Part shown: piece after piece, positions 5,371-43,712 of the stretch
Position numbering within the stretch: the stretch's first letter is position 1
How the letters are laid out: each line of letters starts with the position of its first letter
Source: Cladorhizidae sp. MBARI D1340-BT2
Taxonomy: Eukaryota; Porifera; Demospongiae; Poecilosclerida; Cladorhizidae
DNA: 64,000 bases
Assembly (NCBI GenBank): GCA_028752905.1
Contig: JAQNBH010000004.1
Location: forward strand, 7,171,173 to 7,235,172
Direction of reading: 5' to 3'
Made by a program: the position numbers and the translations under genes
The notes under the pieces: model-generated
Seen by the model: the letters and a program-made list of their open reading frames with translations, nothing else
What the model was told of the DNA's origin: nothing
The model's database searches: none

Positions 5371-5630
5371 CTTACTTTATAGCTGGTGAGTTACAGTATT
5401 CTATGGCTAGGATGACATGATTTGACTAATTGTTCAACTTCAATTTATTTGAACATGTCTCTTGGCTCTCTGTGTCCAACCTACTTCATGAAACCATCGT
5501 AGTATGTGAGTTACAGTATATCTAAATTTAGGATGACATGATTGATCAACAGTTACTTTAATAATTAATTTCAACATGTCTATCCGCTCGGTGTCCAACC
5601 TACTGAGGTAATGTCAACATAGTTTGATAG
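5371..5630 (+). repeat. Variable-triplet array 1 (CTG, TAT; decayed TTT)
   Basis: Three tandem units with a 120-bp period. Each has a box of the form TAG, triplet, GTGAGTT. Triplets: CTG at 5383-5385, TAT at 5503-5505, and a decayed third box with TTT at 5623-5625 whose donor reads GATAGT. The first acceptor has a pyrimidine-rich tract (tctgtctgtccttactttatag). The geometry is that of a 3-nt exon between short introns, but splicing is not shown. Confidence 0.85.
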
Positions 5631-5726
5631 TTGCTAGAGTATGCAAGAACTAAAGTCTATTCACCTTGACTTGCAGTGGAAGTAATATGCCCAATCATGC
5701 ACTGAGCAGCAAGATAATGGTCACTA

Positions 5727-6510
5727 GAAGCATGTGTGTAAAAGGGCATGAAGTAGCCACTAATGGAGCTAACTAATGTGCAAGGTGGTGTCCAGTGCAA
5801 TAAAATATCTAACAATTATTTACCAACATGCACTAAGCCACACCAAAGGTGGAAAAATGGATATCACCTGTGTGTTGCTTTACACTAGCTCTCAGAAGTT
5901 TTATCTGATTATGAAGAGGCCTAGTTTGTGCTAAGAAGCCCAGTGAGTCTTTCAGCTGCTTACCCCTGCAGGCTGACGTTTACCCCCTGGATCCTGTTGC
6001 TATTGCCTGTGGTTAGGGAGATAATGTAACATGTGGTTGTGCTAAGAAGCCCAGTGAGTCTTTCAGCTGCTTACCCCTGCAGGCTGAGTTTACCCCCTGG
6101 ATCCTGTTGCTATTGCCTGTGGTTAGGGAGATAATGTTACATGTGGTTAGTTACAGCTGCAGCAAAGTGTATGCATGTGCATATGTACACAATGCTGGTG
6201 ATTGTGAGTAGGTGACTGTTTGCTGTGGCTCTCCTCTCCACGATTCATTCTACCCAACCTCATATATACATTTAGCATGCCTGTTTCTCATGCCACATCT
6301 GTGGAGCTAGTGCTCTAATAATTAGTAACTCTACCTTATCCTGCATCTCGGCTTCTTACTAACTTGATTTGAGAGACATCTCCTGGCCCAACTGGTTCTG
6401 AGTGGAGATCTTGCTTGTATATTAAATGACTAGTTTTGTTAAACTAACAGTTGACTCTGCCATAACTGATGGTGCTTATATTTTGTAAGAATAATTCTAT
6501 CTCAGTTTAA
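5727..6510. repeat. Common module, copy 2
   Basis: This is nearly identical to 1-200 plus 3123-3597, without the piggyBac A insertion. An internal duplication of about 100 bp (5933 and 6046) repeats the stretch gctaagaagcccagtgagtc. No gene is supported. Confidence 0.75.
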
Positions 6511-7642
6511 CCCTCTCACTGGCATAAGCGACTTAAGTTGCGAAAACTGATAACCGTGGACAAAAAAAATCGTAAAAAATTAATCGTTTATGGTATAAAC
6601 TTTAAAAATTGCATAAGCATTCCTAAAGCATACTTCTACTATACCCCTGAATATTTGGAAAATAGGGCTTTAGGAAACCATTTGAAGTAAACATGCCAGC
6701 AAACATCACTTCCTGTTCATTCCCCGTCTACAAGAAGAAATTGCGACCCAATTTAGTAGGGACGAAGTTTTGGACTTCCTATTTGAGGATGACTTCGTCC
6801 TGTCCGAGAGTGACATTAGCGAAGAAGAAGAAGAAGGTGCCTGTGCTTACCTGGGAAGTGAAGCAAGTTTTAACAGTATAGGTCGCCCTACTCTGCCAGG
6901 CGAAGCTTCAGAAGATAGCGACGATCATGAAGACTTCCCCCAAAGTAAGAATAGATAAGAGTTGTAAGGTAAGGCCTAGTAACTAGCATAATAAGAAGAA
7001 CTATTTTTCCTGGGAAAGTAGTTTCACTCATGGACCTGGAGGAGGATGAGGAAGCAGCAGAGGAGAAGACAGGGCTGGACGAGAGGTTATTTTTTTATAT
7101 ATTTTTCTATTTATTTATAATGTAGCACTATGTGTTTGTCTGAGTTATGCTGAACATGCAGACCTTCACAGTGCCAAGCATTGCCCTTTTATTTTTATCT
7201 ATATTTATTGCATTGGGAAGGTATATATGTTATGCACACTTTGCACATACTTTTATTTATTTTGTTTATTTTTCAGTACTAAGGGCCCTAGCCCTTACTT
7301 CCTCTTTGTTATAATGATATTCACATCTTTGTGGTTTGTTATAATCGACCAAAAATTGTTGTTGACAAACAGTTGTTGTTGTTGACCAAAAGTTGACCGG
7401 CTAACATTGCTGGTTTCATGTGAAATATGAAAGTGAGATGATATAAACCCTTTATTTTACTTCCTGTGTCTTATAACAATATTCACGTTTGTGTGGTTTG
7501 TTGCAAAGCAACTAAAATTTACCATAACGTCCCTTCATGCATCAGCTATCACCTAATATATAATTGTTGGGTACTTCTCTTCATATGGTCCTCTATTAAA
7601 AAAAAAATTTTAAAGTCCTCCGTAAATCTGCCAGTGAAAGGT
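6511..7642 (+). mobile_element. Non-autonomous piggyBac-like element, family B copy 2
   Basis: Flanked by TTAA at 6507-6510 and 7643-7646, with the same ends as the 3598 copy. The N-terminal transposase frame (FEDDFVLSESDISEEEEE) is present at about 6770-6958, but its start codon has changed from ATG to ATT. The subterminal palindrome is degraded by one base (gcgacttaagttgc). Confidence 0.88.
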
Positions 7643-7649
7643 TTAAGTA

Positions 7650-8570
7650 TTGTGGAACATAGTCTAATCATTGATAACATTTTTTAAGTATGTAACCCTG
7701 TGTAAGTGTCGTGTAACATGGTCTGTGTTGTACGATGGAAAATGATGCTCTCAATTTTGAATGTAATACCATATTTCATTAACAGATTCAGCCTTTGATC
7801 TGACATATCTTCAAATGAAAACATTTGTCAAAATGTTTTATAAGACATGCTAAAAACTAGATATTTACCTGCACATGTGCAGAAGGCTACAGCATTATTA
7901 TATAAAACTTTATTTCTTGTTCTGGTTTATGTGAGTGGGCGGAGGAAGTGATAAACATATAACAAATAATAAAACCTACTGACCATCATAAACAGTCTCT
8001 TCCTTACCTTTACTGCTGTCTCTGCAAGCCAATGAAAGCTCATGCTAGCCTGAAATCACTCAGAATCTCTTCACTCTTGAGAATAAAATGCACTCCTGGA
8101 TGTATTACTGCATCAGCATCTAGGGAAGGTTTGGCATTGTAGGTGCTAGCTAACATCAGGAGGGAAAGAGTTACCCTGTACAGGTTTCTCCTGGGATGTT
8201 TGGGCATTACTATATAGGAGCATTACTAGGATCTAGCTGTTCTGATCAGTAAGGGTAGCAAAACTTTACTAGAGTATACAGGATCCCATCCAAGGACAAT
8301 AATGTCAACTAACAAGTGTAGCATACTTGATCTCAATGAAATTTAAGTCAGTGTTCTTCTCCGTAACTAGCGATCATTTATCAACAGACTTACTTGAGCC
8401 AAGAATTGATTGTAAAATATTTACTAATACCCACAGAGATCAGAATGCTCACTTGGCTGCCATTAAGCTCAAGTGCACTGTCCCTGCGACATCCATCCAT
8501 GTGAAGAGACTCTAGGGATACACAGCTGAACTTTACAATATATTTGTTTCAACATATCCCTCATGTCTGT
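7650..8570 (+). repeat. Module between piggyBac B2 and array 2
   Basis: Common module sequence. It includes a segment repeated near 11816, 18920, 23530, 25440, 33657, 38690 and 48000 (ccatcataaacagtctcttcc). On the minus strand that segment reads as an acceptor (cattggcttgcag), 14 bases, and a donor (gtaaggaag). The plus-strand frame ending at 8515 is a damaged copy of the frame upstream of array 6. Confidence 0.5.
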
Positions 8571-8575
8571 CTGTC

Positions 8576-8925
8576 CTTACTTTATAGCCGGTGAGTTACA
8601 GTATTCTATGGCATGATTTGATCAACTTCAATTAATTTGCACATGTCTTTTGGCTCTCTGTGTCCAACCTACTTCATGAAACCATCATAGGATGTGAGTT
8701 ACAGTATATCTAAATCTATGATTATATGTCTTGATCAACTATAATTAATATACATGTCTCTTGGCTCTCTGTGTCCAACCTACTTACAGGAAACCTTCAT
8801 AGGCGATGAGTTAGTGTATTCTATGTCTAGAATGACATGTGTTGACTGATTGATCAATTCTAATTTATTTGAACATGTGTCTTTGCTCTCTGTGTCTAAC
8901 CTAATGAAACATAGTTTCATAGTTA
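8576..8925 (+). repeat. Variable-triplet array 2 (CCG, GAT; decayed GCG, TTT)
   Basis: Four units with spacings of 103, 112 and 112 bp. Intact boxes: CCG at 8588-8590 and GAT at 8691-8693, each followed by GTGAGTT. Decayed boxes: GCG at 8803-8805 followed by ATGAGTT, and TTT at 8915-8917 followed by CATAGTT. The same four-unit layout occurs in array 6 with different triplets in the intact boxes and the same triplets in the decayed ones. Confidence 0.85.
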
Positions 8926-8929
8926 CTTA

Positions 8930-10134: not shown

Positions 10135-11775
10135 TCTTGCTAGTAAAGTAAGAGACCAAAAAAATCTGGTTCTGTACCCATTCCAACGCTAATGTTACGA
10201 TGTTGGCGACATTTGAAACGTAGAATCAACGCATAAAAACCCCGACAGATAATGCAAGACAAATGCCGTTAAGTTTACCTTTCAATTTTTTAATATTTTG
10301 CTCTTTTTTTAAATAAATGCGTGTGCACACATTCACATGCACATGGGCTCCAGTTGTTTACAACAAGCTAAATCAAGCTAAATCTAGAGAGTGTTTTTTG
10401 CTCCACTTTGTTTTCTTCTTCCCAGATGTAATTTTTTCCATCAAGAAGTTTATTGCCGACTGAAGTACATATTAGTCATTTCTCTTCCTAGCCTTTTGGC
10501 CTGTGCCCACTAGTGTCTGTCCTTCAGGTCCAGCTCTCAACTTAGTATTAGTAGCTTTGCCTTCTAGTTCATTGCTACACTGTGTAGCTAAGATGCATTA
10601 GACTAAGCTTGCTATATAGTTTTGTAGAGGTTTGATTTCCTAGGCACAAAGCCTGGGCCCTTTTTAAAGCCCTCATAAAACCTCTAGTAGCTTGCCTTAG
10701 AGAGACTTTACAGAATAGCTTAGCAAGCTTTTTCTTAGAAAGGTTGAAGATTTTACATAGCAGGACTTGCCTTAGAAAATTTAACCTCTAGAAACCCTTA
10801 GCTAAGATTTTCTATCTAACAAGCCATGTCTAACTATTAAGCCTCACATCAACCATGTATAGACCAAGAGGAGCTGATACATTTACGCATTGCCCAATGG
10901 AGAACTCTGTGTCAGTGGTGCCCCTAACTACAGTGGAGGATGGTCATGTGTTTGGTGATAGGTATACTGTAAGAGTGGAAAACTTTGGTCAGGAGTGTAA
11001 AATTTCTGCAATGCATTACTCTTATTACATAGTGGATGTCTCTGTTGTACATGCAACAGGACCTCAGACTTCTATGGTTTAGTTAGAGGATGAGTTTGTC
11101 CTTGATGGCCCCATCAACTCACACATACTAGTCTACATCTCCACTACATTCGGTGGTTCCAACTACTTACCTCTTCATGAATTTGAGCTTGGTGTTTGGA
11201 GTCGATCCAGCAAACACAACTATATATGCTCGCAAAATAACAATGACATGGAATATTTATGTTAGTTTTGTAACTGACCGTTTTTTAAAAAGATATCTGG
11301 CAAGTTCATCTGCTTCACACAAAAATGTTCAAATGTCAGAGAAATATTGACACACTGAGACACACAAACACTTGGTTGTAGCTTTCAACCATGCTTCACA
11401 CCAAAAATGTGTCCTGCCAGTTGGGTAGTCTTGGTTGTGAAAGCCAACCATAACACAAGCCTTGCATGATACCGTGTTAATTGTCATGAAAGTTCACTGG
11501 TGATAGTTAATTGCTCAATGATTATGATAACCTTACTACCAGGTATTATATGCATGAACTACCAGTGAATAATTACAACAACATTAAATAGCCAGTTGCT
11601 GCTCCTTGTAGTTCGATGATACTTGGAAGAATTGAGAGCAGTCTATGGATCTCAAGTTTGACTGCATCAGTCCATATAACCTATGGATCTTAAGTTTGAC
11701 TGCATCAGTCCATATAACATCCTCTATGCCACAAGTCACCTCCCCAAGAAAATGCCAGATTCACTCCAATGTTAA
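10135..11775 (+). repeat. Module M copy 1 (unrecognised ORF, terminal-exon-like segment)
   Basis: One of three copies (others at about 14310-15955 and 27515-29135). In order it holds a segment ending in a good acceptor (tttgttttcttcttcccag at 10407-10425) followed by a short frame ending IKKFIAD and TGA at 10461-10463; a U2-like stretch containing tagccttttggcctg near 10487; short repeats of agcctt/agcaag type; then an ORF starting at 10855. The copy ends with ccaatgTTAAgtgaggaag at about 11765-11784, the empty counterpart of the site where piggyBac A2 sits in copy 2. Confidence 0.7.
10855..11350 (+). pseudogene. Unrecognised ORF, module M copy 1
   Basis: The frame starts MYRPRGADTFTHCPMENS and runs 75 codons to a TAG at 11080-11082. 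It then continues open with LEDEFVLDGPINSH and GGSNYLPLHEFELGVW until a frame shift near 11240. Homology with copy 2 extends to 11350. The predicted chain is rich in alternating hydrophobic residues, which suggests beta structure. I do not recognise the family. The internal TAG is at the same place in all three copies. Confidence 0.45.
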
Positions 11776-12283
11776 GTGAGGAAGAGATAAAAATATTAAA
11801 ACTTACTGACAATCACAAATTGCCATCATAAACAGTCTCTTCCTTACCTTTACTGCTGTCTCTGCAAGCCAATGAAAGCTCATGCTAGCCTGAAATCACT
11901 CAGAATCTCATCATTCCTGAGAATAAAATGCACTCCTGGATGTATTACTGCATCAGCATCTAGGATGGTTTGGCATTGTAGGTGCTAGCTAACATCAGGA
12001 GGGAAAGAGTTACCCTGTAGGTTTCTCCTGAGATGGTTGGGCATTAGTTGGAGCATTAGTAAGATCTAGTAGCTGTTCAGACACCAGTAACTAAGGGTAG
12101 CAATACCTTTACTAGATTACAGGGTCCCATCCAAGGAGAACAATGTCAACTGACAGGTATTGCATACTTGATCTCAATGAAAGCAAGTCAGCGTTTTTCT
12201 CCGTAACTAGCGAATAGACTTACTTGAGCCAAGAATTGATGGTAAAATATTTACTAATACCCACAGAGATCAGAATGCTCTGA

Positions 12284-12350
12284 CTGGGTAAGGATGAGGG
12301 AGGTGGCTGGGTAAGGTTGAGGGAGGTGGCTGGGTAAGGATGAGTGAGGT
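12284..12350 (-). repeat. Short minisatellite, three 23-bp units
   Basis: Three units of ggctgggtaaggatgaggga plus three bases. It is the unexpanded counterpart of the array at 19378-19922. Confidence 0.85.
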
Positions 12351-13425
12351 GTAGGTGATGTAACTGGTGCATGTGTATACATGTACACAATGCTATTAGA
12401 GAATGTGAATAGTGTACTACTTGCTGTACAATAGCTTATCTTCTTGTGGCTCACCTCTCCAGGAATGATTCTGCCCATACTCATGTTGCTGTTGCTGTTT
12501 CTCATGCCACACTTGGGGAGCTTCTCTTTCTAGTTATCTAAGAGTAGTATCTCTTACTTATCCTCCTGGATCACTCTTAGAGCAGCTAGCTCCTATATAA
12601 CCTCCATATCCCAGTGACCACTGCAAAGATCTCGCACTACTGTGGCCCAAAATAACCCCCAGTCTGTGAATAATGTATCAGAGATCACCAGCTAATTTAA
12701 TTTATTTTGCAGAATCGGATAAAAAAAGAAGACGAACATTTTAAATAATTCATGAACTCTACAACTTATTCTTTTTTAAAAGTGCTAGCATATCTCCTTA
12801 TAAGTAATTAAAGACAAAGGTTTATTCAAATGCAGCATGCTTGAGTTTGCTTACCAAAAGCAATGTCAGACTAGATCTACAAGGTAAAACTTACAGTAAA
12901 GTAGTCTAACTGGGAGTGCCTCCTTTCTCAAAGTCCAAGTTTCCAAGTCATGGCTGAAGTTCCAGCCTACTACACCTAGAAGGAAGTTTGAGAGGCTGCC
13001 TTTTAGGGGAGCAACCTCAGTGCTCAAGCAAGGCTGACAATTTGCATAACCTTTTTAATCTAGCAGTAGAGAAGTTTGAATATATGGCTGGTCATGTTCC
13101 CAGAAAGATATATTCATCTGTTCTCTATTTTTATGACAAGGTGGAGTGCCCATTGCTTAGTTGCAGGTGCTGGAGTGCACATTTTCTTGTCCTTATTGAA
13201 GTAGTGAATCAGGGCCATGGGAAAGATATCGCCAGCTAGCTGAAGGTCCAGCAAAATGTTATTGTGTGGTGACTGAGGGCAATCAAATTTTGTTTATCTT
13301 AATTAAGTGATGTGCATATTTAGAGATTATTGTTGTGAATTTCGAATTTCCCACCAGCAGGTGAATGTGAAAAGGCTTTAGGAATACACAAGCTTAACTT
13401 TACTATACATTTATGTCTCTCATCT

Positions 13426-13680
13426 CTTACTTTATAGATGGTGAGTTACAGTATTCTATGGCTGGGATGACAAGATTTTACTAATTGATCAACTTCAATT
13501 TATTTGAACATGTCTCATGGGTCTCTGTGTCCAACCTACTTCATGAAACCATTGTAGCCGGTGAGTTAAAATATTCCATGTCTAGGATGACATGTGTTGA
13601 GTGCTTTAATTAATTTGAACATGTCTATCAGCTCTAGGTGTCCAACCTACTGATGTGACATCAACATAGTTTGATTGTTC
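13426..13680 (+). repeat. Variable-triplet array 3 (ATG, CCG; decayed TTT)
   Basis: ATG at 13438-13440 and CCG at 13558-13560, both with GTGAGTT, then a decayed box with TTT at 13670-13672. The flanks match array 4, where the same two sites hold GAG and TTG. Confidence 0.85.
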
Positions 13681-13791
13681 CATACATTCATACATTGCTA
13701 GAATATTTCAAGAACTAAAGTCTATTCACCTTGACTTGCAGTGGAAGTAATATGCCCAATCATGCACTGAGCAGCAAGATAATGGTCACGA

Positions 13792-15955: not shown

Positions 15956-15959
15956 TTAA

Positions 15960-18867
15960 CCCTTTGAACGCGAAGGGAGTTGCCCAGGTAATTTCCCCTG
16001 ACCGCGGAGGCTGTTTATTGGAATCACCCGTTTTTGAAATCACCTGATTTTTAATTGGATTTTTTTGAATTTTTGAGGCTTGTTTAGGTGAGCAAAAGAG
16101 TGATTATTGAGACTTATCTCCTAACTCTCTACCCAACACAAGGCTAGAAGAACCTTTTGAGATGGCAAGACAAGTGAAGTTAGAATCCAAGTAAGTATTA
16201 TTATGTGGATAAGCTAACCAGTTTGTTACATAGGTGCTCGAAGTTGATAGTTTTAGCTAGGTCACTAGCTAGTTGTATATAGGTCATCTTTTTAGGTAGC
16301 ACTCGAGGTAAGCTAGCTGTAGGTAGCTAGCTGTAAGTCGTCTTATAGCTAGCGCTCGAAGTAGGCAGTTGTAGATCATATTTATATAGCTTATCTAATA
16401 ATTATTATTAGTAAAGTGAATAATTGTTGGTCATCTTTGGCTAGCAAGGTATCTAGCTCTCCAGGTATAGTAGTTTAGACCATCTTCATACCTAGCCAAG
16501 TAGCAAGCGCTTCAAGTGTATAGGCAGTTTTAGCTGATCTTTATAACTAGCCAAATAGCTAGCGCTTGGAATGTATAGGCAGTTTTAGCTCATCTTTATA
16601 ACTAGCCAATTAGCTAGCGCTTGAAGTGGGCTCTTTTGGAAGATCAATAGCTAGCGCTTGAAGTGCATAGGCAGTTTTAGCTCATCTTTATATTAAACTA
16701 GCCAATTAGCTAGCGCTTGAAGTTGGCTCTTTTGGAAGATCATTATAGCTAGAAAATTAGCTACGCTTGAAGCTGGCAGTTGTAGCTGATATATAGCCAG
16801 CTAGCTAGTGCTGGAGGTAGCTAGTAGACCTCCAAGAAAACTAAGGTATTCTATAGCCAGTGCTAGTATATATTTCAGCTCAGCTAGCTGGTTCAGCCAC
16901 TGGATGATTTTGAAGGATGGACACTTCATCAAGCTGTGCTTCTGTCAGTCCTGCCTCCAGAAGAAATCCAACAGCAACCTTCACTAAGAAGGACTGGTGT
17001 GTTATTCTTCGGCCAGTCAAAGGTGTCCCTTTATATATTATGTATGCATTTACCAATGCCAGGTTGAGGAGATGAAAAGCTGCCCGTTTCCACCATTTCT
17101 GTGTCCTATGTTAGAAGGTATAGTAACTCATCAGCTGATTGGATTTATCAACCCCACCCATGTGACTGTTGTACTCGACAATGGTTGTTGGCTTTATAAC
17201 TCCTCCTTGCCAGTTGCTGACAGCCTTGTCCTCCTCCTCTTTGATATAGTGCTATCATCGTGGATGCTTAGAATGGTCACAGCTATCTTGTCCATCCATT
17301 TCAAGGCAAGGACACCATTTGTACTTACAGACTTGATCTCACCCTTTTTCATTTTGTCTTTGGCCTCGGGTACCCCCCTCCTGTTCACCCGAAACTGTAC
17401 CACATGCACCAAAGCCATTACTTTTTAGGGTGAGGAACAAGTCTGGACTGGTGTAATAGTTGTCACAGTACAAATGGTGTCCTTTATTCTCCAACCCTTC
17501 CACTAGCTTCATAACCACGTCGTGTGTTATTCCTATTCCCATTCCCGTAGCACGGAGGCTCTCATCCTTCCCTGGGAGACAAAAAAAGAACAAGAAGTGA
17601 AAAGGGAAAAAAGCGGGAAGGAAAAAGGGGACAATGAAGAAGAGCGGGAAGGAAGTGAAAAAAGAAAGAAAAAGTGGGGGGGGGGGAAGACTAAGAAGTG
17701 AATTATATTTATTGTATATAATTATAATTATTATATATAATACTTTTCTACATAGCTATTTTGTGTGTATATATACAGTTTCCTCACCTGCATATAGCTT
17801 CCAACTGTAAGTATATCCACTGGACTGCCAGGACATAGGCTTTCAATCCCCACTTGATAGGTTTCATTGTCATGTACTGGATAAACCACAGCCGTCCCTT
17901 GAAGCCTATCATTGATTCATCCACTGATATTTCTCTCCCTAGCTGGTAAAAAGTTTTGAATTTGTCGAGTAAATGCTCCATAAGTGGCCGTATTTTGAAC
18001 AGGGCATCATATCCTGGCTGACCCCTAGGCACATACTTTTCCCTGTCCTGTGAAAAAAGCGAAGGATGAGACAAAATCGGTCTCGTGCCATGATCGAGGA
18101 GAAGCATGATGTGGTGAAGGGCCATTGCACCAATAGTCCTCAATCCGATGCTTATTGTCCACACTCATGGCAATGATAAGGGCAAGAAACTTCATAATTT
18201 CACTGACTGATCACCTTTTCCACTCTGCTTCTTGATCGAGGAGGTAAGTCTTTATTTGCAGCCATGAATTGCTCGGCATACAAATTTGTTTCGTTCACAA
18301 CTCCTGTCGTCCAGAAAAAGCTGAGCAAACTCCAAAGGCTCTTTTCCTTCCATGTTTACAGTGCACCCAGATGCCTGGCTAAAGGAGATGGAAGAACTGA
18401 AACAAGAAGTACTGGCACCATAACTACTTGCAACAGAAGTGCTACCACTGTAGCTACACTCACCACCAACTACACCATCACAGCTACCTCACAAACTCCA
18501 AGATCCTCATCATACTCACTATAATTCTCCTCTATGAAGCCATCAAAATCATCATCACTATCATCATCCAACATACACAGCACTTCTTCTGTATCATGAT
18601 ATTTAGCCATAGTTGCACACCACAATATTTATCTAAACTTGCTATCTGCTGTATATCTGATAACTAGCGAAATGCCAAACTGTACATAGCTCTTAACTAA
18701 ATCAATAGCTCCTCTATCTACAGAACTTACGAGTGCAGCTGTAAACCCAAGCAGCTACTCAGTACGCACTTATAAAGCATTGTATCTTTGGGGGACACTA
18801 TAGTGTCCGCCCGCGTGTCAATGTAATTTTTACGTGGACACTATAGTGTCCGCGCGCGTTCAAAGAG
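15960..18867 (-). mobile_element. piggyBac-like DNA transposon, family A copy 2 (inverted)
   Basis: The element is 2,908 bp, flanked by TTAA at 15956-15959 and 18868-18871. It is a near-identical inverted copy of 203-3118. The flanks joined across the element match 11765-11784 in the paralogous module exactly at one TTAA, so the insertion happened after module M was duplicated. The pair of palindromes is at 18836-18851 and 18793-18808. Confidence 0.95.
16880..18610 (-). pseudogene. Broken piggyBac transposase, copy A2
   Basis: The ATG at 18610-18608 gives the same acidic N-terminus as copy A1. A frame of 126 codons (18164-17784) holds REISVDESMIGFKGRLWFIQ with the first catalytic Asp, intact where A1 has a stop. 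The intron is 17787-17572 (minus strand). The second Asp motif, LYCDNYYTS, is in the frame at 17593-17339, and the MGGVDKSNQL region and C-terminus follow down to the TGA ending at 16880. The frame is shifted near 17820 by the same four-base loss as in A1. It is less damaged than A1, so it is probably closer to the ancestral copy, but still not functional. Confidence 0.9.
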
Positions 18868-18871
18868 TTAA

Positions 18872-20993: not shown

Positions 20994-21256
20994 CTTACTT
21001 TATAGGAGGTGAGTTACAGTACTCTATGGCTGGGATGACAAGATTTTACTAATATCTCAACTTCAATTTATTTGAACATGTCTCTTTGCTCTCTGTGTCC
21101 AACCTACTTCATGAAACCATCATAGTTGGTGAGTTACAGTGTATCTAAATCTAGGATGACATGATTGATCAACAGTTACTTTAATAATTAATTTCTACAT
21201 GTCTGTCCACTAGGTGTCGAACCTACTGAGGTAATGTGAACATAGTTTGATAGTTC
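20994..21256 (+). repeat. Variable-triplet array 4 (GAG, TTG; decayed TTT)
   Basis: GAG at 21006-21008, TTG at 21126-21128 (both followed by GTGAGTT), and TTT at 21246-21248 followed by GATAGTT; period exactly 120 bp. Flanks match arrays 1 and 5, which have other triplets in the first two boxes and the same TTT. Confidence 0.85.
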
Positions 21257-22035: not shown

Positions 22036-22039
22036 TTAA

Positions 22040-24114: not shown

Positions 24115-24377
24115 CTTACTTTATAGGATGTGAGTTACAGTATTCTATGGCTAGGATGATATGATTTGACTAATTGTTCAACTTCAATTTATTTGAACAT
24201 GTCTCTTGGCTCTCTCTGTCCAACCTACTTCATGAAACCATCATAGTGGGTGAGTTACAGTATATCTAAATCTAGGATGACATGATTGATCAACAGTTAC
24301 TTTAATAATTAATTTCAACATGTCTGTCCGCTCGGTGTCCAACCTACTGAGGTAATGTCAACATAGTTTGATAGTTC
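24115..24377 (+). repeat. Variable-triplet array 5 (GAT, TGG; decayed TTT)
   Basis: GAT at 24127-24129, TGG at 24247-24249 (both followed by GTGAGTT), TTT at 24367-24369. Compared with array 1 only about five flanking bases differ over 240, yet GAT replaces CTG and TGG replaces TAT. Confidence 0.85.
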
Positions 24378-24478: not shown

Positions 24479-26037
24479 AGAAGCATGTGTGTAAAAGGGC
24501 ATGAAGTAGCCACTAATGGAGCTAACTAATGTGCAAGGTGGTGTTGAGTGTAATAAAATATCTAACAATTATTTACCAACATGCACTAAGCCACACCAAA
24601 GGTGGTAAACACCTGTGTGTTGCTTTACAGTAGCTCTCAGAAGTTTTATCTGATTATGAAGAGGCCTAGTTTTTGCTAAGAAGCCCAGTGAGTTTTTTAG
24701 CTGCTTACCCCTGCAGACTGACCTTTACCCCCTGGATCCTGTTACTATTGCCTGTGGTTAGAGAGGTGATGTAACATGTGGTTACTTGCAGCTGCAGGAA
24801 AGTGCATGCATGTGTATATGTACAGAATGCTACCTGTTTGCTGGGGCTATCCTCTCCATGATTGATTCTGCCCAACCTCATATAGCATCCCTGTTTCTCA
24901 TGCCACATCTGTGGAGCTAGTTGTTAGTACCTCTACCTTATCATCCTGCATCTCTCTGTTGAGGACTTCTTACTAACTTGGTTTGAGAGACATCTCCCTG
25001 GCCCAACTGGTTCTGAGAGATCTTGCTTGTATAGTAAATGACTAGTTTTGTTAAACTAACAGTTGACTCCTCCATAACTGATGATTCTTATATTTTGTAA
25101 GAATGATTCTATCTCAGCTTTAATGTTTTGATAACATTTTTGAAGTATGTAACACTGTGTAAGTGTCATGTAACATGGTCTGTGCTGTACGATGGAAAAT
25201 GATGCTCTCAATCTTGACCATATTTCATTAACAGATTGAGCCTTTGATCTGACATATCTTCAAATTGGAACATTCGTCAAAATGTTTTGTAAGACATGTG
25301 CTAAAAACCAGATTTTTACCTGCACATGTGCAGAAGGCTACAGCATTATTATATAAACCTTTATTTCTTGTTCTGGTTTATGTGAGTGGGCGGAAGAAGT
25401 GATAAAAATATAACAAATAATAAAACTTACTGACAATCACAAATTGCCATCATAAACAGTCTCTTCCTTACCTTTACTGCTGTCTCTGCAAGCCAATGAA
25501 AGCTCATGCTAGCCTGAAATTACTCAGAATCTCTTCACTCCTGAGAATAAAATGCACTCCTGGATGTATTACTGCATCAGCATCTAGGATGGTTTGGCAT
25601 TGTAGGTGCTAGCTAACATCAGGAGGGAAAGAGTTACCCTGTGTACAGGTTTCTCCTGGGATGGTTAGGCATTACTAGGAGCATTAGGAGCTAGCTGTTC
25701 TCTCACCAGTAAGAGTAGCAATACTATATAATTAGTAGCGCATACAGGATCACATCCAAAGACAACTATGTCAACTAACAGGTGTAGCATACTGATCTCA
25801 GGAAGCAAGTCAGCATTCTTCTCCGTCACTAGCGATTATTTATCAACAGACTTACTTGAGCCAAGAATTGATTGTAAAATATTTACCAATACCCACAGAG
25901 ATCGGAATGCTAACTTGACTGCCATTAAGCTCAAGTGCACTGTCCCTGCGACATCCATCCATGTGAAGAGACTCTATGGATACACAGCTGAACTTTACAA
26001 TATATTTGTTTCAACATGTCCCTCATCTCTGTCTGTC
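24479..26037. repeat. Common module copy 5 and lead-in to array 6
   Basis: A module copy without a piggyBac B insertion: the region around 25105-25130 has ctcagctttaatg where the other copies carry the element. The frame 25768-26049 (lacking an ATG at its start) is the best-preserved version of the lead-in frame: SVTSDYLSTDLLEPRIDCK and IKLKCTVPATSIHVKRLYG. It ends exactly at the TAG before the first variable triplet. I do not recognise it. Confidence 0.5.
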
Positions 26038-26385
26038 CTTACTTTATAGGGTGTGAGTTACAGTATTCTATGGCTAGGATGACATGATTTGATCAACTTC
26101 AATTTATTTGAACATGTCTCTTGGCTCTCTCTGTCCAACCTACTTCATGAAACCATCATAGTCGGTGAGTTACAGTATATCTAAATCTTGGATTATATGT
26201 CTTGATCAACTTTAATTAATTACATGTCTCTTGGCTCAACCTACTTACAGGAAACCTTCATAGGCGATGAGTTAGTGTATTCTATGTCTAGAATGACATG
26301 TGTTGACTGATTGATCAATTCAAATTTATTTGAACATGTGTCTTTGCTCTCTGTGTCTAACCTAATGAAACATAGTTTCATAGTT
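26038..26385 (+). repeat. Variable-triplet array 6 (GGT, TCG; decayed GCG, TTT)
   Basis: Intact boxes GGT at 26050-26052 and TCG at 26162-26164; decayed boxes GCG at 26264-26266 (followed by ATGAGTT) and TTT at 26376-26378. Compared with array 2, both intact triplets have changed and both decayed triplets are the same. Confidence 0.85.
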
Positions 26386-26389
26386 ACTT

Positions 26390-31366: not shown

Positions 31367-31748
31367 CTTACTTTATAGCCGGTGAGTTACAGTATTCTAT
31401 GGCTAGGATGACAAGATTTGACTAATTGTTCAACTTCAATTTATTTGAACATGTCTCTCGGCTCTCTGTGTCCAACCTACTTCATGAAACCATCATAGAT
31501 TGTGAGTACACTATTTCTATATCCAGGATTACATGTGTTCACTTATTGATCTACTTTAATTAATTTACATGTCTCTTGGCTCTCTCTGTTCAATTTATTT
31601 CATCAAACAATCATAGTGGGTAGTGACAGTATTCTATATCTAGGATGACATGTGTTGACTCTCTGATGAACTATAATTAATTTGAACATGTCTCTAGGCT
31701 CTCTGTGTCTAACCTACTGAGGTTATATCAACATAGTTTGATAGTTAC
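31367..31748 (+). repeat. Variable-triplet array 7 (CCG, ATT; decayed TGG, TTT)
   Basis: CCG at 31379-31381 (GTGAGTT), ATT at 31499-31501 (GTGAGTA), TGG at 31617-31619 (donor decayed to GTAGTG) and TTT at 31737-31739. It is the reference for the four recent copies: array 8 has ATT and AGG, array 9 ATG and TAT, array 10 GCG and GAG in the two intact boxes, while TGG and TTT never change. Confidence 0.9.
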
Positions 31749-32846: not shown

Positions 32847-35391
32847 AATAGTACTTAAAAAGTAGACCCCAGTGATGGACAGTTACTAACAAGCCTAGTA
32901 GGTCTATAGACTGCATACATATACCAGTTGGCTGACCTTTAACCCCTGGATGCTTGTTGCAGCTGCCTGTGGTTAGGGAGGTGATGTAACTGGTAATCTG
33001 TAGCAAAGTGCATGTTTGTGCATAGTACACAATGCTAGTGATTGTGAGTAGTTTACTGTTTGCTCTCCTCTCCATGATTGATTCTACCCAACCTCATATA
33101 GCATCCCTGTTTCTCATGCCATATCTGTGGAGCTAGTTGTCTATCCTGCATCTCTCTGTTGAGGGCTTCTACTAACTTGGTTTGAGAGACATCCCCCTGG
33201 CCCAACTGGTTCTGAGTGGAGATCTTGCTTGTATAGTAAATGACTAGTTTTCTTAAACTCCCAGTTGACTCCTTGCTAACTGATGATGTTTATATTTTGT
33301 AAAAATGATTCTATCACAATTTAAATTCTCTGAAACAGTCTAAACATTGAGTAATATTTTGTAAGGATGTAACCCTGTGTAAGTGTCGTGTAACACAGTC
33401 TGTGTAATATTGTTGATGGAGAAATAACTCTTAATTTTGAATGCATATTTCATTAAATGCTTTTAAGCTGATATATATTCGAATTATGACATTCATCAAA
33501 ACATTTTATAAGACATGCTAAAAACTAGATATTTACCTGCACATGTGCAGAAGGCTACAGCATTATTATATAAACCTTTATTTCTTGTTCTGATTTATGT
33601 GAGTTGGCGGAGGAAGTGATAAAAATATAACAAATAATAAAACTTACTGACAATCACAAATTGCCATCATAAACAGTCTCTTCCTTACCTTTACTGCTGT
33701 CTCTGCAAGCCAATGAAAGCTCATGCTACCCTGAAATCACTCAGAATCTCTTCACTCTTGAGAATAAAATGCACTCCTGGATGTATTACTGCATTAGCAT
33801 CTAGGATGGTTTGGCATTGTAGGTGCTAGCTAACATCAGGAGGGAAAGAGTTACCCTGTACAGGTTTCTCCTGGGATGGTTGGGGATTATAGGGCTATAG
33901 GCAGCTATTTGAAGGTGATGTAGCCAGAATCTGTTGGCTACCCTTGTGGGAGGTGATTTCTTCATGACTGGGAGAATTAGCCAGCAACAATCATCTCTCA
34001 AAATACTTTGTCTGCTCTGACTCCATTCCTTAGATCCAAAGCTCTCCCACTGTCACTTCAAAACATTATGTTGACCTCTGTTAAAGGATCAGATGTGCCC
34101 TCACTATGACACTGCTACTTCTCCTGATCAAACACACTGCGAATATCTTAGGCTGTGTCACTTGAATTTTGATATATCTAATCTACTGCCCCCCACCCCC
34201 CACCCCTGCACCCCACACCCCAATGTTGGAAGATGACAATGAAGACTGGAAAATGGAAGTTAAGACTGCCACTCTGATCATTGAACTCTCATTTAGTAAT
34301 AATTATTTGTCTAATTCCTGACTATCTTTCTCTTATGCTAGTGTTTGGATGTGCTTGTTTATATGAACATCCAGAAAGGGCAATGCAATAAATGAAACTT
34401 GAAACTTAAACTTGCTGGAAGTTGTTCTTGTTTTGCCATATATTATAATAATAGTATGCATGCATGCAATATGAAACGATGGAAGCAACACAGGCCTTGT
34501 GGAAGTCACAGCTTGCATACTTGCAAGGTACGTGTGCCATCCTTCCAGTTTGTAAAGGCCTTCACTAGATACGCTCGCTCAGTCTCACCAGTGACCACAG
34601 CTCTACCATCCTAGACAGCCTTGCAGCATGTGAAGCTTCCAGCAGCATCCAGCACAATATCATAGTGTAGCCACTTTAGTTGTTAAACCCGTTAGCCTGA
34701 AACGAACAGTTTACTGGTGCACTTATACCAAAGGACAAAGAAGGGAAGACAATATGCCTCACTGAAATGGCTCAAGTGGTAGGCCACCAAATTAAGTCAT
34801 GCTGAAGATACGGGTCAGCCTCGTGTCCTTTGACCTCATATAATTAATTAAACTTGTAGTATAATGTTGTATGGTCATAGCCGCACCAGCCACACCAGTG
34901 GCTACTGCCCTGCATTTGTAGGAGCTAGCTGTTCTGACCAGTAAGGGTAGCATTACCTTTACTAGAGTATAGAGAATCCCATCCAAGCACAACAATGTCA
35001 ACTAACAGTTGTAGAATATAGATCTCAATGGAGACAAGTCAGCATTTTCTTATCCATAAGTAGCGATCATTTATCGACAGATTAACTTGAGCCAAGAATT
35101 GATTGTAAAATGTTTACAATACCACAGAGATCAGAATACTCACTTGGCTGCCATCAAGCTCAAGTGCACTGTCCCTGCGACATCCATCATTGCCCATGAC
35201 AGGTTTCATTATGAACTATTGAAAGTTAATGCCATCCTTACTGGTGTTTAAACAGCCAGATCCTTGCCAAGTCCTACATCCCAGATGAACATTCCTTTTC
35301 TTGTCAATTGTAAATAACAACCTCCCTTTCAATAGATGGACTGAAATATAATATATTATCATGGTCAACATATCCCTCATCTCTGTCTGTC

Positions 35392-35775
35392 CTTACTTTA
35401 TAGATTGTGAGTTACAGTATTCTATGGCTAGAATGACAAGATTTGACTAATTGTTCAACTTCAATTTACTTGAACATGTCTCTCGGCTCCCTGTGTCCAA
35501 CCTACTTCATGAAACCATCATAGAGGGTGAGTACACTATTTCTATATCCAGGATTACATGTGTTCACTTATTGATCTACTTTAATTAATTTACATGTCTC
35601 TTGGCTCTCTCTGTTCAACTTATTTCATCAAGCAATCATAGTGGGTAGTTACAGTATTCTATATATCTAGGATGACATGTGTTGACTCTCTGATGAACTA
35701 TAATTAATTTGAACATGTCTCTAGGCTCTCTGTGTCTAACCTACTGAGGTTATATCAACATAGTTTGATAGTTAC
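35392..35775 (+). repeat. Variable-triplet array 8 (ATT, AGG; decayed TGG, TTT)
   Basis: ATT at 35404-35406, AGG at 35524-35526, TGG at 35642-35644 (donor GTAGTT), TTT at 35764-35766. Across the first 120-bp unit only about three flanking bases differ from array 7. Confidence 0.9.
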
Positions 35776-38493: not shown

Positions 38494-39237
38494 TTAAGCT
38501 GATATATATTCGAATTATGACATTCATCAAAACATTTTATAAGACATGCTAAAAACTAGATATTTACCTGCACATGTGCAGAAGGCTACAGCATTATTAT
38601 ATAAAACTTTATTTCTTGTTCTGGTTTATGTGAGTTGGCGGAGGAAGTGATAAAAATATAACAAATAATAAAACTTACTGACAATCACAAATTGCCATCA
38701 TAAACAGTCCCTTCCTTACCTTTACTGCTGTCTCTGCAAGCCAATGAAAGCTCATGCTAGCCTGAAATCACTCAGAATCTCTTCACTCTTGAGAATAAAA
38801 TGCACTCCTGGATGTATTACTGCATCAGCATCTAGGGAAGGTTTGGCATTGTAGGTGCTAGCTAACATCAGGAGGGAAAGAGTTACCCTGTACAGGTTTC
38901 TCCTCGGATGGTTGGGGATTATAGGACTATAGGCAGCTATTTGAAGGTGATGTAGCCAGAATCTGTTGGCTACCCTTGTGGGAGGTGATTTCTTCATGAC
39001 TGGGAGAATTAGCCAGCAACAATCATCTCTCAAAATACTTTGTCTGCTCTGACTCCATTCCTTAGATCCAAAGGTCTCCCACTGTCACTTCAAAACATTA
39101 TGTTGACCTCTGTTAAAGGATCAGATGTGCCCTCACTGTGACACTGCTACTTCTCCTGATCAAACACACTGCGAATATCTTAGGCTGTGTCACTTGAATT
39201 TTGATATATCTAATCTACTGCCCCCCACCCCCCACCC

Positions 39238-41030
39238 ACACCCCAATGTTGGAAGATGACAATGAAGACTGGAAAATGGAAGTTAAGACTGCCACTCTGA
39301 TCTTTGAACTCTCATTTAGTAATTTGTCTAATTCCTGACTCTCTTTCTCTTATGCTAGTGTTTGGATGTGCATGTTTATATGAACATCCAGAAAGGGCAA
39401 TGCAATAAATGAAACTTGAAACTTAAACTTGCTGGAAGTTGTTTTTGTTTTGCAATATACTGTAATAATAGTATGCATGCATGCAATATGAAGCCATGGA
39501 AGCAACACAGGCCTTGTGGAAGTCACAGCTTGCATGCTTGCAAGGTACGTGTGCCATCCTTCCAGTTTGTAAAGGCCTTCACTAGATACGCTCGCTCAGT
39601 CTCACCAGTGACCACAGCTATACCATCCTAGACAGCCTTGCAGCATGTGAAGCTTCCAGCAGCATCCAGCACAATATCATAGTGTAGCCACTTTAGTTGT
39701 TAAACCCATTAGCCTGAAACGAACAGTTTACTGGTGCACTTATACCAAAGGACAGAGAAGGGAAGACAATATGCCTCACTGAAATGGCTCAAGTGGTAGG
39801 CCACCAAATTAAGTCATGCTGAAGATACGGGTCAGCCTAGAATTAAACTTGTAGTATAATGTTGTATGGTCATAGCCGCACCAGCCACACCAGTGGCTAC
39901 TGCCCTGCATTTGTAGGAGCTAGCTGTTCTGACCAGTAAGGGTAGCATTACCTTTACTAGAGTATAGAGGATCCCATCCAAGCACAACAATGTCAACTAA
40001 CAGTTGTAGAATATAGATCTCAATGGAGACAAGTCAGCATTTTGTTATCCATAACTAGCGATCATTTATCGACAGATTAACTTGAGCCAAGAATTGATTG
40101 TAAAATGATTACAATACCACAGAGATCAGAATGCTCACTTGGCTGCCATCAAGCTCAAGTGCACTGTCCCTGCGACATCCATCATTGCCCATGACAGGTT
40201 TCATTATGAACTATTGAAAGTTAATGCCATCCTTACTGGTGTTTAAACAGCCAGATCCTTGGCAAGTCCTACATCCCAGATGAACAATCCTTTTCTTGTC
40301 AATTGTTAATAACAACCTCCCTTTCAATAGATGGACTGAAATATATATTATCATGGTCAACATATCCCTCATCTCTGTCTGTTCTTACTTTATAGATGGT
40401 GAGTTACAGTATTCTATGGCTAGAATGACAAGATTTGACTAATTGTTCAACTTCAATTTATTTGAACATGTCTCTCGGCTTTCTGTTTCCAACCTACTTC
40501 ATGAAACCTGAAACCATCGTAGTATGTAAGTTACACTATTTCTATATCCAGGATTACATGTGTTCACTTATTGATCTACTTTAATTAATGTACATGTCTC
40601 TTGGCGCTCTCTGTTCAACTTATTTCATCAAACAATCATAGTGGGTAGTTACAGTATTCTATATCTAGGATGACATGTGTTGACTCTCTGATGAACTATA
40701 ATTAATTTGAACATGTCTCTAGGCTCTCTGTGTCTAACCTAGTGAGGTTATATCAACATAGTTTGATAGTTACATGCATTACTAGAGTAAGGCAGAACTA
40801 AAGTCGATCCACCTTGACTTGAAGTGGAAGTAAGATACCCAATCACGCACTGAGCAAGATAATGTTCATGAGAAGCACATGTGTATGTAGTAGCTACTAA
40901 TAGAGCTAGCTTCTGTGCAACATGTTGTCGAGTGTTGCCAAAAAATTTAGCATTAAATGTGTTATATTTACCATCATGCAGTAGTAAGCCACGCAAAAGG
41001 TGGAGATAGGGTTAAGGCAGAAAACAACTC
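39238..41030. repeat. Tandem module P copy 3 (partial)
   Basis: Copy of the left part of module P through array 9. It then changes abruptly near 41030-41090 to module Q. The empty site for piggyBac D, gtggttcaTTAAaggcc, is at 41123-41126 just past the junction. Confidence 0.75.
40384..40772 (+). repeat. Variable-triplet array 9 (ATG, TAT; decayed TGG, TTT)
   Basis: ATG at 40396-40398 (GTGAGTT), TAT at 40523-40525 (GTAAGTT, still a good donor), TGG at 40642-40644, TTT at 40762-40764. The first spacing is 127 bp because of a 7-base duplication (gaaacct) before the second box. Confidence 0.9.
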
Positions 41031-41094
41031 TCTGATTCTTTAGCTGTCGTTAGATTAGGATAATAGCTGGAATGTGGTGTCCTTGACCAGTTAG

Positions 41095-42180
41095 AACTAA
41101 GTGCCATCTGGTTTGTGGTTCATTAAAGGCCTATTAACATAGTTACAGATTATAGCACCATTCCATGTATGGACATATATATGCTAAGATAAACAGCACT
41201 GGAGATAATTCTGAAAGCAGCCTTTAATTTGTTGGTCGTAAGGAAATTCGATACTCATAGTCTCCGGAAGTGTTGAGCAATAAATGAGCTTTTAAATGGT
41301 GCCAGAGCTATAGAGTTTAGCAAGAATTTTAGCTGGCACCATATACATGTTTTGAGGAACCAAGGTTCAAAGTTGAGCATTCAACATGCCGGACATTTCT
41401 ATCAAGCACTCTACTCTCTAAGAAATGGAGAAGATGCATGGAGAGAAGTAGCCATAACTTTGGAATGGACCCTTCAATTGTTCTGAAACTTGAAATCCAG
41501 CTTGTGACAGTTATAGTTCAATAATAATAGTAGGGCTGATTTAGAGGGTTGGGGGGGGACTGGGAGGGGCATTAGCTGATCCTTCTCCCACCTTGAGATC
41601 TTAGGATATTGTATTATTGTATAGTATAGTGCTGTTTAATATGTGCCCCCCCCCCACTCAATCCTAAATGCAGCCCTGAATAGTATTTAAAAGTAGACCC
41701 CAGTGGTGGGTCTATAAACTGCTTACCTACAACAGTAGGCTGACCTTTAACCCTGCATCCTTGTTGCTACTGCCTGTGGTTAGTGAGGTGATGTAACAGG
41801 TGATTAGTTACAGCTGCAGCAAAGTGCCTGCATGTGTATATGTACACAATGCTCCTGTTTGCTGGGGCTCTCCTCTTACCCAACCTCATATCATCCTGCA
41901 TCTCTCTGTTGAAGACTAAACTTGGTTTGTGAGACATCCCCCAGGCCCAATTAGTGAACAACATCTTGCTTGTATAGTAAATGACTAGTTTTGTTAAACT
42001 CCCAGTTGACTCCTTGATAACTGACGATGTTTATATTTTGTAAGAATGATTCTATCACAGGTTAAGTGTTTTAAAACATGTCTATTCATTGAGTAATGTT
42101 TTGTAAGGATTTGATAGAACTAATGTGCTAAACTCCTCCTCCTTCCCCATCCTAAAACACACACATAATAAATCCCAATG
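41095..42180. repeat. Module Q copy 2 with MITE 4
   Basis: Nearly identical to 29125-30184. MITE 4 lies at 41531-41678 with a left end mutated to tagggctg and a short C run. No gene. Confidence 0.7.
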
Positions 42181-43331
42181 TTGGAAAATGGCAATGAAGA
42201 TTGGAAAATGGAAGTGAAGACTGGCCACTCAGATCTTTGGACTCTCATTTAGTAATTTGTCTAATTCCTGACTCTCTTTCTCTTATGCTAGTGTTTGGAT
42301 GTGTATCTTTATATGAACATCCAGAAAGGGCAATGCAATAAATGAAACTTGAAACTTAAACTTGATGGAAGTTGTTTTTGTTTTGCAATATACTGTAATA
42401 ATAGTATGCATGCATGCAATATGAAGCCATGGAAGCAACACAGGCCTTGTGGAAGTCACAGCTTGCATGCTTGCAAGGTACGTGTGCCATCCTTCCAGTT
42501 TGTAAAGGCCTTCACTAGATACGCTCGCTCAGTCTCACCAGTGACCACAGCTCTACCATCCTATACAGCCTTGCAGCATGTGAAGCTTCCAGCAGCATCC
42601 AGCACAATATCATAGTGTAGCCACTTTAGTTGTTAAACCCGTTAGCCTGAAACGAACAGTTTACTGGTGCACTTATACCAAAGGACAGAGAAGGGAAGAC
42701 AATATGCCTCACTGAAATGGCTCAAGTGGTAGGCCACCAAATTAAGTGATGCTGAAGATACGGGTCAGCCTTGTGTCCTTTGACCTCATAAAATTAATTA
42801 AACTTGTAGTATAATGTTGTATGGCCGCACCAGCCACACCAGTGGCTATTGCCCTGCATTTGTAGGAGCTAGCAGTTCTGACCAGTAAGGGTAGCATTAC
42901 CTTTACTAGAGTATAGAGGATCCATCCAAGCACAACAATGTCAACTAACAGTTGTAGAATATAGATCTCAATGGAGACAAGTCAGCATTTTCTTATCCAT
43001 AACTAGCGATCATTTATCGACAGATTAACTTGAGCCAAGAATTGATTGTAAAATGATTACAATACCACAGAGATCAGAATGCTCACTTGGCTGCCATCAA
43101 GCTCAAGTGCACTGTCCCTGCGACATCCATCATTGCCCATGACAGGTTTCATTATGAACTATTGAAAGTTAATGCCATCCTTACTGGTGTTTAAACAGCC
43201 AGATCCTTGGCAAGTCCTACATCCCAGATGAACAATCCTTTTCTTGTCAATTGTAAATAACAACCTCCCTTTCAATAGATGGACTGAAATATATATTATG
43301 ATGGTCAACATATCCCTCATCTCTGTCTGTT

Positions 43332-43712
43332 CTTACTTTATAGGCGGTGAGTTACAGTATTCTATGGCTAGAATGACAAGATTTGACTAATTGTTCAACT
43401 TCAATTTATTTGAACATGTCTCTCGGCTCTCTGTTTCCAACCTACTTCATGAAACCATCATAGGAGGTGAGTATACTATTTCTATATCCAGGATTACATG
43501 TGTTCACTTATTGATCTACTTTAATTAATTTACATGTCTCTTGGCTCTCTCTGTTCAATTTATTTCATCAAACAATCATAGTGGGTAGTTACAGTATTCT
43601 ATATCTAGGATGACATGTGTTGACTCTCTGATGAACTATAATTAATTTGAACATGTCTCTAGGCTCTCTGTGTCTAACCTACTGAGGTTATATCAACATA
43701 GTTTGATAGTTA
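43332..43712 (+). repeat. Variable-triplet array 10 (GCG, GAG; decayed TGG, TTT)
   Basis: GCG at 43344-43346, GAG at 43464-43466 (both with GTGAGT), TGG at 43582-43584 (donor GTAGTT), TTT at 43702-43704 (GATAGTT). Confidence 0.9.

Follow-up and report, generated by a model that had tools for sequence, protein, structure and literature searches.

Why should a tandem repeat that is otherwise well conserved differ from copy to copy in exactly three adjacent bases? This question is raised by a stretch of 64,000 nucleotides from the sponge Cladorhizidae sp. MBARI D1340-BT2 (assembly GCA_028752905.1, contig JAQNBH010000004.1, here C13, positions 7,171,173 to 7,235,172), which we call the window; genome-wide counts cover the 857 Mb assembly. 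Units of roughly 120 bp in the window carry a box TAG-NNN-GTGAGT, in which NNN is the variable triplet. Our analysis indicates that these triplets are probably one-codon exons that would enter the 5' part of ROCO family genes by phase-0 splicing, and that strong diversifying selection is the best explanation of their variability. The single-codon exon reading is well supported by the sequence, transcription being predicted, and the link to ROCO is supported by location and phase; splicing of the triplets is likewise a prediction.

The exact box occurs 19 times on the plus strand of the window and not at all on the minus strand, and a twentieth box, at 40523, has the donor GTAAGT. These 20 boxes, with 13 distinct triplets, have the positions and the order given in a preliminary description of the locus, and they fall into ten arrays, the number stated there, with two intact units each, the triplets of an array being spaced by 103 to 127 bases (Table 1). 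In six arrays the intact pair is accompanied by a third unit, its donor broken or altered. The arrays lie 1.9 to 7.6 kb apart in duplicated modules that are mostly 93–100% alike within subfamilies; some of the modules are separated by transposon insertions, and fragments of piggyBac-like transposases (Pfam DDE_Tnp_1_7) are found in the window. The cluster extends to the left past the window, with further arrays at C13:7149697, 7156119, 7161382 and 7170821, and as a whole it comprises 14 arrays with 28 triplets, among which 14 distinct triplets are found. Two weaker units at C13:7146823-7146992 were excluded from every count.

Table 1. Triplet units of the ten arrays and predicted exons of the ROCO gene (positions in the window).
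Feature	Position	Strand	Remark
Array 1 unit 1, triplet CTG (Leu)	5383..5385	+	
Array 1 unit 2, triplet TAT (Tyr)	5503..5505	+	
Array 2 unit 1, triplet CCG (Pro)	8588..8590	+	
Array 2 unit 2, triplet GAT (Asp)	8691..8693	+	
Array 2 unit 3, triplet GCG	8803..8805	+	broken donor ATGAGT; near-constant control
Array 3 unit 1, triplet ATG (Met)	13438..13440	+	
Array 3 unit 2, triplet CCG (Pro)	13558..13560	+	
Array 4 unit 1, triplet GAG (Glu)	21006..21008	+	
Array 4 unit 2, triplet TTG (Leu)	21126..21128	+	
Array 5 unit 1, triplet GAT (Asp)	24127..24129	+	
Array 5 unit 2, triplet TGG (Trp)	24247..24249	+	
Array 6 unit 1, triplet GGT (Gly)	26050..26052	+	
Array 6 unit 2, triplet TCG (Ser)	26162..26164	+	
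Array 6 unit 3, triplet GCG	26264..26266	+	broken donor ATGAGT; near-constant control
Array 7 unit 1, triplet CCG (Pro)	31379..31381	+	
Array 7 unit 2, triplet ATT (Ile)	31499..31501	+	
Array 7 unit 3, triplet TGG	31617..31619	+	altered donor GTAGTG; near-constant control
Array 8 unit 1, triplet ATT (Ile)	35404..35406	+	
Array 8 unit 2, triplet AGG (Arg)	35524..35526	+	
Array 8 unit 3, triplet TGG	35642..35644	+	altered donor GTAGTT; near-constant control
Array 9 unit 1, triplet ATG (Met)	40396..40398	+	
Array 9 unit 2, triplet TAT (Tyr)	40523..40525	+	donor GTAAGT
Array 9 unit 3, triplet TGG	40642..40644	+	altered donor GTAGTT; near-constant control
Array 10 unit 1, triplet GCG (Ala)	43344..43346	+	
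Array 10 unit 2, triplet GAG (Glu)	43464..43466	+	
Array 10 unit 3, triplet TGG	43582..43584	+	altered donor GTAGTT; near-constant control
Predicted small coding exon	60944..60974	+	phase-0 start after ATATAG, donor GTGAGC
Roc-COR (ROCO) open frame	61031..63462	+	end is the stop; Pfam Roc PF08477, COR-A PF16095, Ras PF00071

Between the four youngest modules (31379, 35404, 40396 and 43344) 1.8 kb of sequence differs by 2.4% per site; the first and second triplets of the same modules differ by 67% and 78% per site, and gap-free three-base windows off the triplets reached at most 33% in the ranked list. On a tree of the flanks of the 14 arrays, Fitch parsimony assigns 8, 9 and 3 changes to the columns of the first triplet and 7, 7 and 4 to those of the second, that is, 20 and 18 in total versus 7 in the best three-column window that touches neither. 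The 600 other columns have a mean of 0.575 changes and a maximum of 4, while the 25 columns on either side of the box average about 0.2 (unit 1) and 0.36 (unit 2), below the general mean as expected from the constraint on splice sites. The concentration of change in three adjacent bases, the central claim of the preliminary description, is thus borne out by sharp three-column peaks at both triplets. Its statement that the flanks are only a few per cent apart applies within a module subfamily, but in pairs more than 4% apart, mostly between subfamilies, they differ at about 27% of the aligned positions. In 105 self-alignments of the cluster (C13 7,141k to 7,219k) we counted 45 sharply bounded spots, among which only the triplets show several states and the others one alternative state; two of the highest non-triplet spots fall in a 23-bp minisatellite. 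This minisatellite, CTGGGTAAGGATGAGGGAGGTGG, is found at window 19378-19922 (24 copies) and at 12284-12351, and belongs to one module type.

The comparison of 34 arrays, namely the 14 of the cluster and 20 from the C13 clusters at 4.65, 4.90 and 5.37 Mb, gives an impression of the rate. The same triplet hypervariability is seen in those 20 arrays. Among the 26 array pairs whose flanks are less than 1% apart, which share history and are not independent of each other, 73 of 156 comparisons at triplet sites show a difference, versus 85 of 12,527 at other sites. In the pair C13:4969202 versus 5399027, four of six triplet sites differ versus 1 of 479 others. Five pairs show no flank difference at all; four of these have identical triplets, and the remaining one differs at one of six triplet sites versus 0 of 492 others. 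The flanks are more conserved than the background, and the triplets change tens of times faster. The observation itself stands, and is stronger than first stated.

Are the triplets placed as exons would be? All 28 triplets of the cluster lie in the frame AG-NNN-GT(G/A)AGT with exactly three bases between the two motifs, and all 28 have the marks of a microexon (AG before, GT after, 30 nt or less). In unit 1 the AG is preceded by a pyrimidine-rich stretch. The six donor bases show one change only among the 20 window boxes, GTGAGT to GTAAGT, by which the consensus is kept. The composition of the triplets also follows what a codon in front of a donor would look like. The third base of 60 triplets from 30 non-identical arrays is G in 48 cases, T in 10, C in 2 and A in none. 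The last exon base before a donor favours G. Asp, Tyr, His, Phe and Asn have T- or C-ending codons only and Ile T-, C- or A-ending ones, while the amino acids with A-ending codons, except isoleucine, all have G-ending codons too, so that A is hardly ever needed at position 3. The prevalence of G endings, with T or C mostly where no G-ending codon exists, therefore fits phase-0 single-codon exons. In the 30 arrays T/C endings make up 1 of 20 triplets in fourfold codon boxes versus 11 of 40 elsewhere (p = 0.047). The corresponding figures are 1 of 48 versus 18 of 110 (p = 0.014) in a list of 161 triplets that holds recent copies and omits most unit 1 boxes beginning with GA; this list contains no stop codon and represents 19 of the 20 amino acids. 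Triplets in fourfold boxes end in G in 7 of 8 cases in the cluster versus 45 of 358 in the ROCO frame (p = 5.8e-6), and this preference for G is seen although CpG is depleted to 0.27.

The units with altered or broken donors, which sit about 100 to 120 bases from the hypervariable ones, are near-constant. With an altered donor, unit 3 reads TGG in all four of the youngest window modules and in seven of eight cases in the other C13 clusters (L033-L052), the eighth being TAG. With the donor ATGAGT it reads GCG in 3 of 3 cases in L033-L052, where four of the eleven third units are identical duplicates of another, and in the present cluster GCG in two of three and TCG in the third.

The box is not limited to this cluster. 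With up to three mismatches, the unit 1 box matches 1,507 places in the genome, compared with 2 for a control, and the exact unit 1 matches listed among them read GAG or ACG, with a single AAG and a single TGG besides. A C10 stretch with a Penelope-like retroelement, recognised by eye, holds five complete arrays, all of which read GAG/TAT/TAT, with 1.8-kb surroundings that differ by 0.5–6%. Their unit 1 surroundings are the same as in the cluster, and their unit 2 surroundings are slightly different, with the donor GTAAGT. Since these arrays are constant despite unit 1 flanks like those of the cluster, local sequence is insufficient for hypervariability. Single copies on C3, C4 and C11 read GAG/TAT/TAT, ACG/CCG, AAG/TAT and TGG/AAG. 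As to the scope of these searches, exact unit 1 boxes not starting with G number 301, of which 100 matches were listed in contig order up to C13:24.3 Mb; the lists are complete for boxes whose triplet starts with T (19), with C (30) or with G followed by C, G or T (12), and for unit 2 with GTGAGT (39), and the counts of GA-first unit 1 boxes cover the cluster, the fetched loci and, elsewhere, GAG. The complete lists place all variable boxes on C13 apart from four, of which C11 and C15 hold one each and C16 two. Around the C11 copy 28 kb of sequence was read, and no other module was seen there. Modules of the 1,507-place family in loci L002, L008 and L023-L028 adjoin sequence that resembles, by eye, a Penelope-like reverse transcriptase or GIY-YIG, and some of the C10 copies are inverted and partial.

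Because variability follows the intact donor and a few loci, and not the local sequence, selection best explains the differences between triplets. The preliminary description had left two readings side by side, namely a diversity-generating site and single-codon exons under diversifying selection. The former, taken as a motif that mutates itself, is disfavoured by the five C10 arrays with the same unit 1 flanks, whereas the latter gains from the splice frame, the third-base rule, the near-constant units with broken donors and the occurrence of diversity mainly in a few gene-linked clusters.

Which gene could such exons serve? About 18 kb 3' of the last window array lies an intact frame of 822 amino acids with tandem Roc (Pfam, E 1.1e-9) and COR-A (E 4.8e-11) domains, and hence a member of the ROCO family. 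In alignments read by eye, the exon in front of the Roc-COR exon begins in phase 0 directly after AG in three paralogues, which fits whole-codon exons upstream, and the small exon at 60944 has kept its frame in two of the paralogues; the copy on C16 retains the phase-0 exon despite about 20% intron divergence. Of the ROCO protein the genome holds seven copies with 94–100% identity on C13 and an eighth, with 82%, on C16; the next six ROCO loci are found on C3 and C7 and have 51–57% identity. COR-A matches number 40 in all, 24 of them above the curated cut-off. Among the matches listed, arrays are located upstream and on the same strand at all eight loci of this Roc-COR subfamily. On C13 the distance to the nearest listed array is about 39 kb for the locus at 3.44 Mb, 16 kb at 4.63 Mb, 14 kb at 4.89 Mb, 21 kb at 5.35 Mb, 20 kb at 7.05 Mb, 18 kb in the window and 18 kb at 7.44 Mb; on C16 it is about 41 kb. 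Near the six next ROCO loci no variable array was found among the matches listed, C7 having none and C3 only ACG copies 6 Mb off. From the last array into the ROCO gene, the cluster at 4.65 Mb matches the window collinearly (93–96.5%, with insertions), and in the arrays sampled the modules of type B occupy the 3' end of each cluster.

The space between the arrays and the ROCO frame yielded little in the way of further exons. A splice-bounded scan gave two candidates of 37 and 42 amino acids, neither convincing, a codon-usage scan gave weak segments only, and none of ten open frames had a Pfam match. A homologue search with the ROCO protein returned 296 proteins, of which 120 were listed; those examined resemble mechanical open frames and lack exons upstream.

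If the triplets are exons, one long primary transcript would span the modules. Within an array, unit 1 would be joined to unit 2 across a short intron (about 100 to 124 bases), the two triplets giving a dipeptide, and long introns would connect the arrays to the phase-0 exon at 60944 and to the Roc-COR exon at 61031. The variable residues would then be placed just before a charged stretch that precedes the GTPase domain, and the receptor-like protein would gain a segment that can be rewritten one residue at a time. With all pairs included in order, the cluster would spell RK PL ED WE LY PD MP EL DW GS PI IR MY AE; alternatively, an mRNA might take one chosen pair or a subset. By analogy with the alternatively spliced leucine-rich repeat (LRR) exons of brown-algal ROCO genes, our guess slightly favours a choice of pairs over the constant inclusion of all. 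The contrast may in addition be heightened if the intronic modules undergo unequal crossing-over or gene conversion, which would homogenise the flanks.

A number of points weigh against this interpretation. The inclusion of the triplets, the exon chain and the start codon are all hypothetical, and the 5' exon of the proposed gene was not found. As the seven ROCO units on C13 are segmental duplicates of each other, the linkage has just one further near-independent case, the locus on C16. Variable arrays at 13.8-15.5 and 17.6 Mb of C13 have no Roc-COR match (E up to 0.001) beside them, and single variable arrays also exist on C11 and C15. Between the ROCO genes of the window and the 4.65 Mb cluster there are 8 synonymous and 22 nonsynonymous changes in 488 codons (window 61031-62481), and the ROCO gene is thus without visible strong purifying selection; it may itself evolve fast. 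The third-base test lacks significance in the cluster taken by itself (p = 0.37) and in the ROCO-linked set (p = 0.054), three triplets at 14.0 and 17.7 Mb of C13 end in A (GCA), and AGT (in at least two places) and GGT end in T although Ser and Gly have G-ending codons. The copies of the retroelement type are not fully uniform (GAG/TAT/TAT, ACG/CCG and one AAG/TAT), and it would take very strong selection, homogenised flanks or biased mutation to produce a difference of 4 of 6 versus 1 of 479 sites. Finally, the interpretation does not account for a conserved block on the opposite strand of the modules (see below). As a separate observation, the order of triplets in the arrays at 13.8-15.5 and 17.6 Mb suggests that these arrays are partial copies of one another.

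Could the triplets instead be rewritten by a process of their own? A germ-line mutator confined to the locus, replacing codons while selection only removed stops and bad donors, would account for triplet rates that far exceed those of the flanks, even in the two array pairs with 1 and 0 flank differences, and for the presence of all four bases at positions 1 and 2. We regard such a codon-replacing generator as unlikely, given that the C10 arrays with the same unit 1 flanks have constant triplets, that four of the five pairs with identical flanks share their triplets and that the broken-donor units of the very same arrays hardly vary; a dedicated enzyme or template was not seen in the stretches read, though no search was aimed at either. 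Much the same low probability attaches to the proposal that point mutation and selection act as usual and that the contrast stems mainly from conversion or unequal exchange homogenising the intronic flanks, with selection rejecting those conversions that erase diversity. The modules are indeed tandem and closely alike within subfamilies, and the clusters themselves are segmental duplicates, but conversion tracts of ordinary length would take the triplets along, and splice-site constraint explains the invariant bases beside the triplet without conversion. We consider flank homogenisation to be a contributor to one-codon exons under selection more than a competitor of that reading. We find it doubtful that the two things combine, so that animal ROCO receptors would have a hypervariable peptide spliced together from single-codon cassettes, whose codons a germline process restricted to the locus would replace faster than any flanking mutation; if true, it would amount to a codon-by-codon diversity generator for self or pathogen recognition.

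The triplets might also be noncoding, as spacers in a DNA or RNA element spread by retroelements, with a diversity due to drift or to some effect at the level of the element. The 1,507 matching places, the Penelope-like reverse transcriptase or GIY-YIG-like sequence (by eye) next to sampled C10 and C3 modules, the variable clusters without a Roc-COR partner and the weak hairpin possible across unit 1 are in line with this idea. It is nevertheless very unlikely, as drift cannot yield the excess of triplet over other differences among close array pairs (73 of 156 versus 85 of 12,527), the length is three in 28 of 28 triplets, in the larger sets the third base obeys codon logic, and the variable boxes in the complete lists are confined to C13 but for the four on C11, C15 and C16. 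That the triplets are assembly or consensus errors is scarcely credible: errors would not confine themselves to three bases between splice motifs or obey a third-base rule, nor would they spare the neighbouring units and recur identically in four pairs with identical flanks.

Several other candidates were tried and rejected. Triplets acting as tRNA anticodons or belonging to another known RNA are contradicted by ARAGORN (0 tRNAs) and Rfam (0 at gathering score). Mobile introns with 3-bp target duplications do not fit, since the triplets changed after duplication of whole modules, and junctional N-addition as in V(D)J joining does not agree with the length of three in 28 of 28 triplets. Adenine-only mutation is contradicted by the similar numbers of all four bases at positions 1 and 2. 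Among the repeated codon orders on C13, which might suggest a conserved gene order, several are recent identical copies. A sequence in L002 looked by eye like a hammerhead core, but scanning the stretches from C13 and C10 for the pattern gave no hammerhead ribozyme. A mutational hot spot in a hairpin loop was dismissed as well, the weak unit 1 hairpin in folds of four arrays being treated as a coincidence; in at least two of the four folds of unit 1 boxes (for example, window 5371-5410) CTTAC, ahead of the triplet, pairs with GTGAG behind it. One pattern searched in viral and prokaryote collections gave 0 exact matches.

How do these arrays compare with known systems? As far as the text of PMC11378527 at hand describes them (it cites Zambounis et al. 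2012), the LRR-ROCO genes of brown algae have 72 bp exons in phase 2, each encoding a 23-residue LRR that includes four selected sites, and these exons are shuffled, tandem, diversified and alternatively spliced, which makes the proteins candidate immune receptors. The sponge genes resemble the genes so described in the Roc-COR family, in the tandem units of the same size (here predicted exons) and, as proposed here, in diversifying selection. They differ in that the predicted exon is 3 bp long, is in phase 0 and is itself the selected site, that no 72-bp LRR exon or other LRR was seen here, and that the host is an animal and not an alga. In the sense of the brown-algal arrays, the units upstream on the same strand at eight of eight loci (among the matches listed) are 3 nt long and are probably exons. 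Dscam is similar in having tandem duplicated alternative exons that differ from one another. Its exons encode parts or the whole of Ig domains and are subject to mutually exclusive choice, unlike the single codons predicted as exons here. Diversity-generating retroelements create adenine-specific, template-driven hypervariability at the level of codons in otherwise constant sequence; the likeness lies in codon-level hypervariability within constant sequence, and the difference in that all four bases are involved here. In the parts of the microexon literature at hand, exons of 3 nt are counted as real by detection tools and microexons are highly conserved (PMC7821500; further microexon papers are PMC8042270 and PMC8831610), and unlike here no hypervariable or tandem-array microexon is described in them. 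A description of hypervariable single-codon exons was not found among the papers listed in searches of the open-licence PMC literature.

If the triplets are exons, they would constitute the smallest possible unit of exon-based protein diversity, and selection and splicing would act on the variable residue alone, as it is physically apart from the constant sequence. The idea of an exon-diversified ROCO immune receptor would then extend from brown algae to an animal, and the adaptive speed of each codon could be read against hundreds of neutral-looking flanking bases. If the rate needs a mutator, this would be a new kind of targeted germline variation. According to the part of PMC7821500 at hand, common aligners lose sensitivity for microexons under 8-10 nt, so that standard annotation would probably miss such genes.

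The conserved block mentioned above comprises about 77 bases that are nearly invariant in eight window copies, located within 7930-8060, 11760-11890, 18855-18985, 23475-23605, 25385-25515, 33600-33730, 38630-38760 and 47945-48075. On the minus strand it reads as an acceptor, a 55-nt segment and a donor GTAAGT, and it recurs, somewhat changed, in the C10 copies and in L002. A minus-strand gene in the modules was considered because of these splice-like ends, but rejected after reading by eye, as the frame is broken in C10 and the donors are lost on C11. Beside the C11 copy of the triplet module there is an open frame of 169 amino acids (L029:6818-7324) with no Pfam match, followed by a cysteine pattern recognised by eye as PHD-finger-like. 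Just left of the cluster, C13:7101173-7137000 (L009-L012) contains tandem repeats of about 3.2-4.4 kb with coding-like minisatellites.

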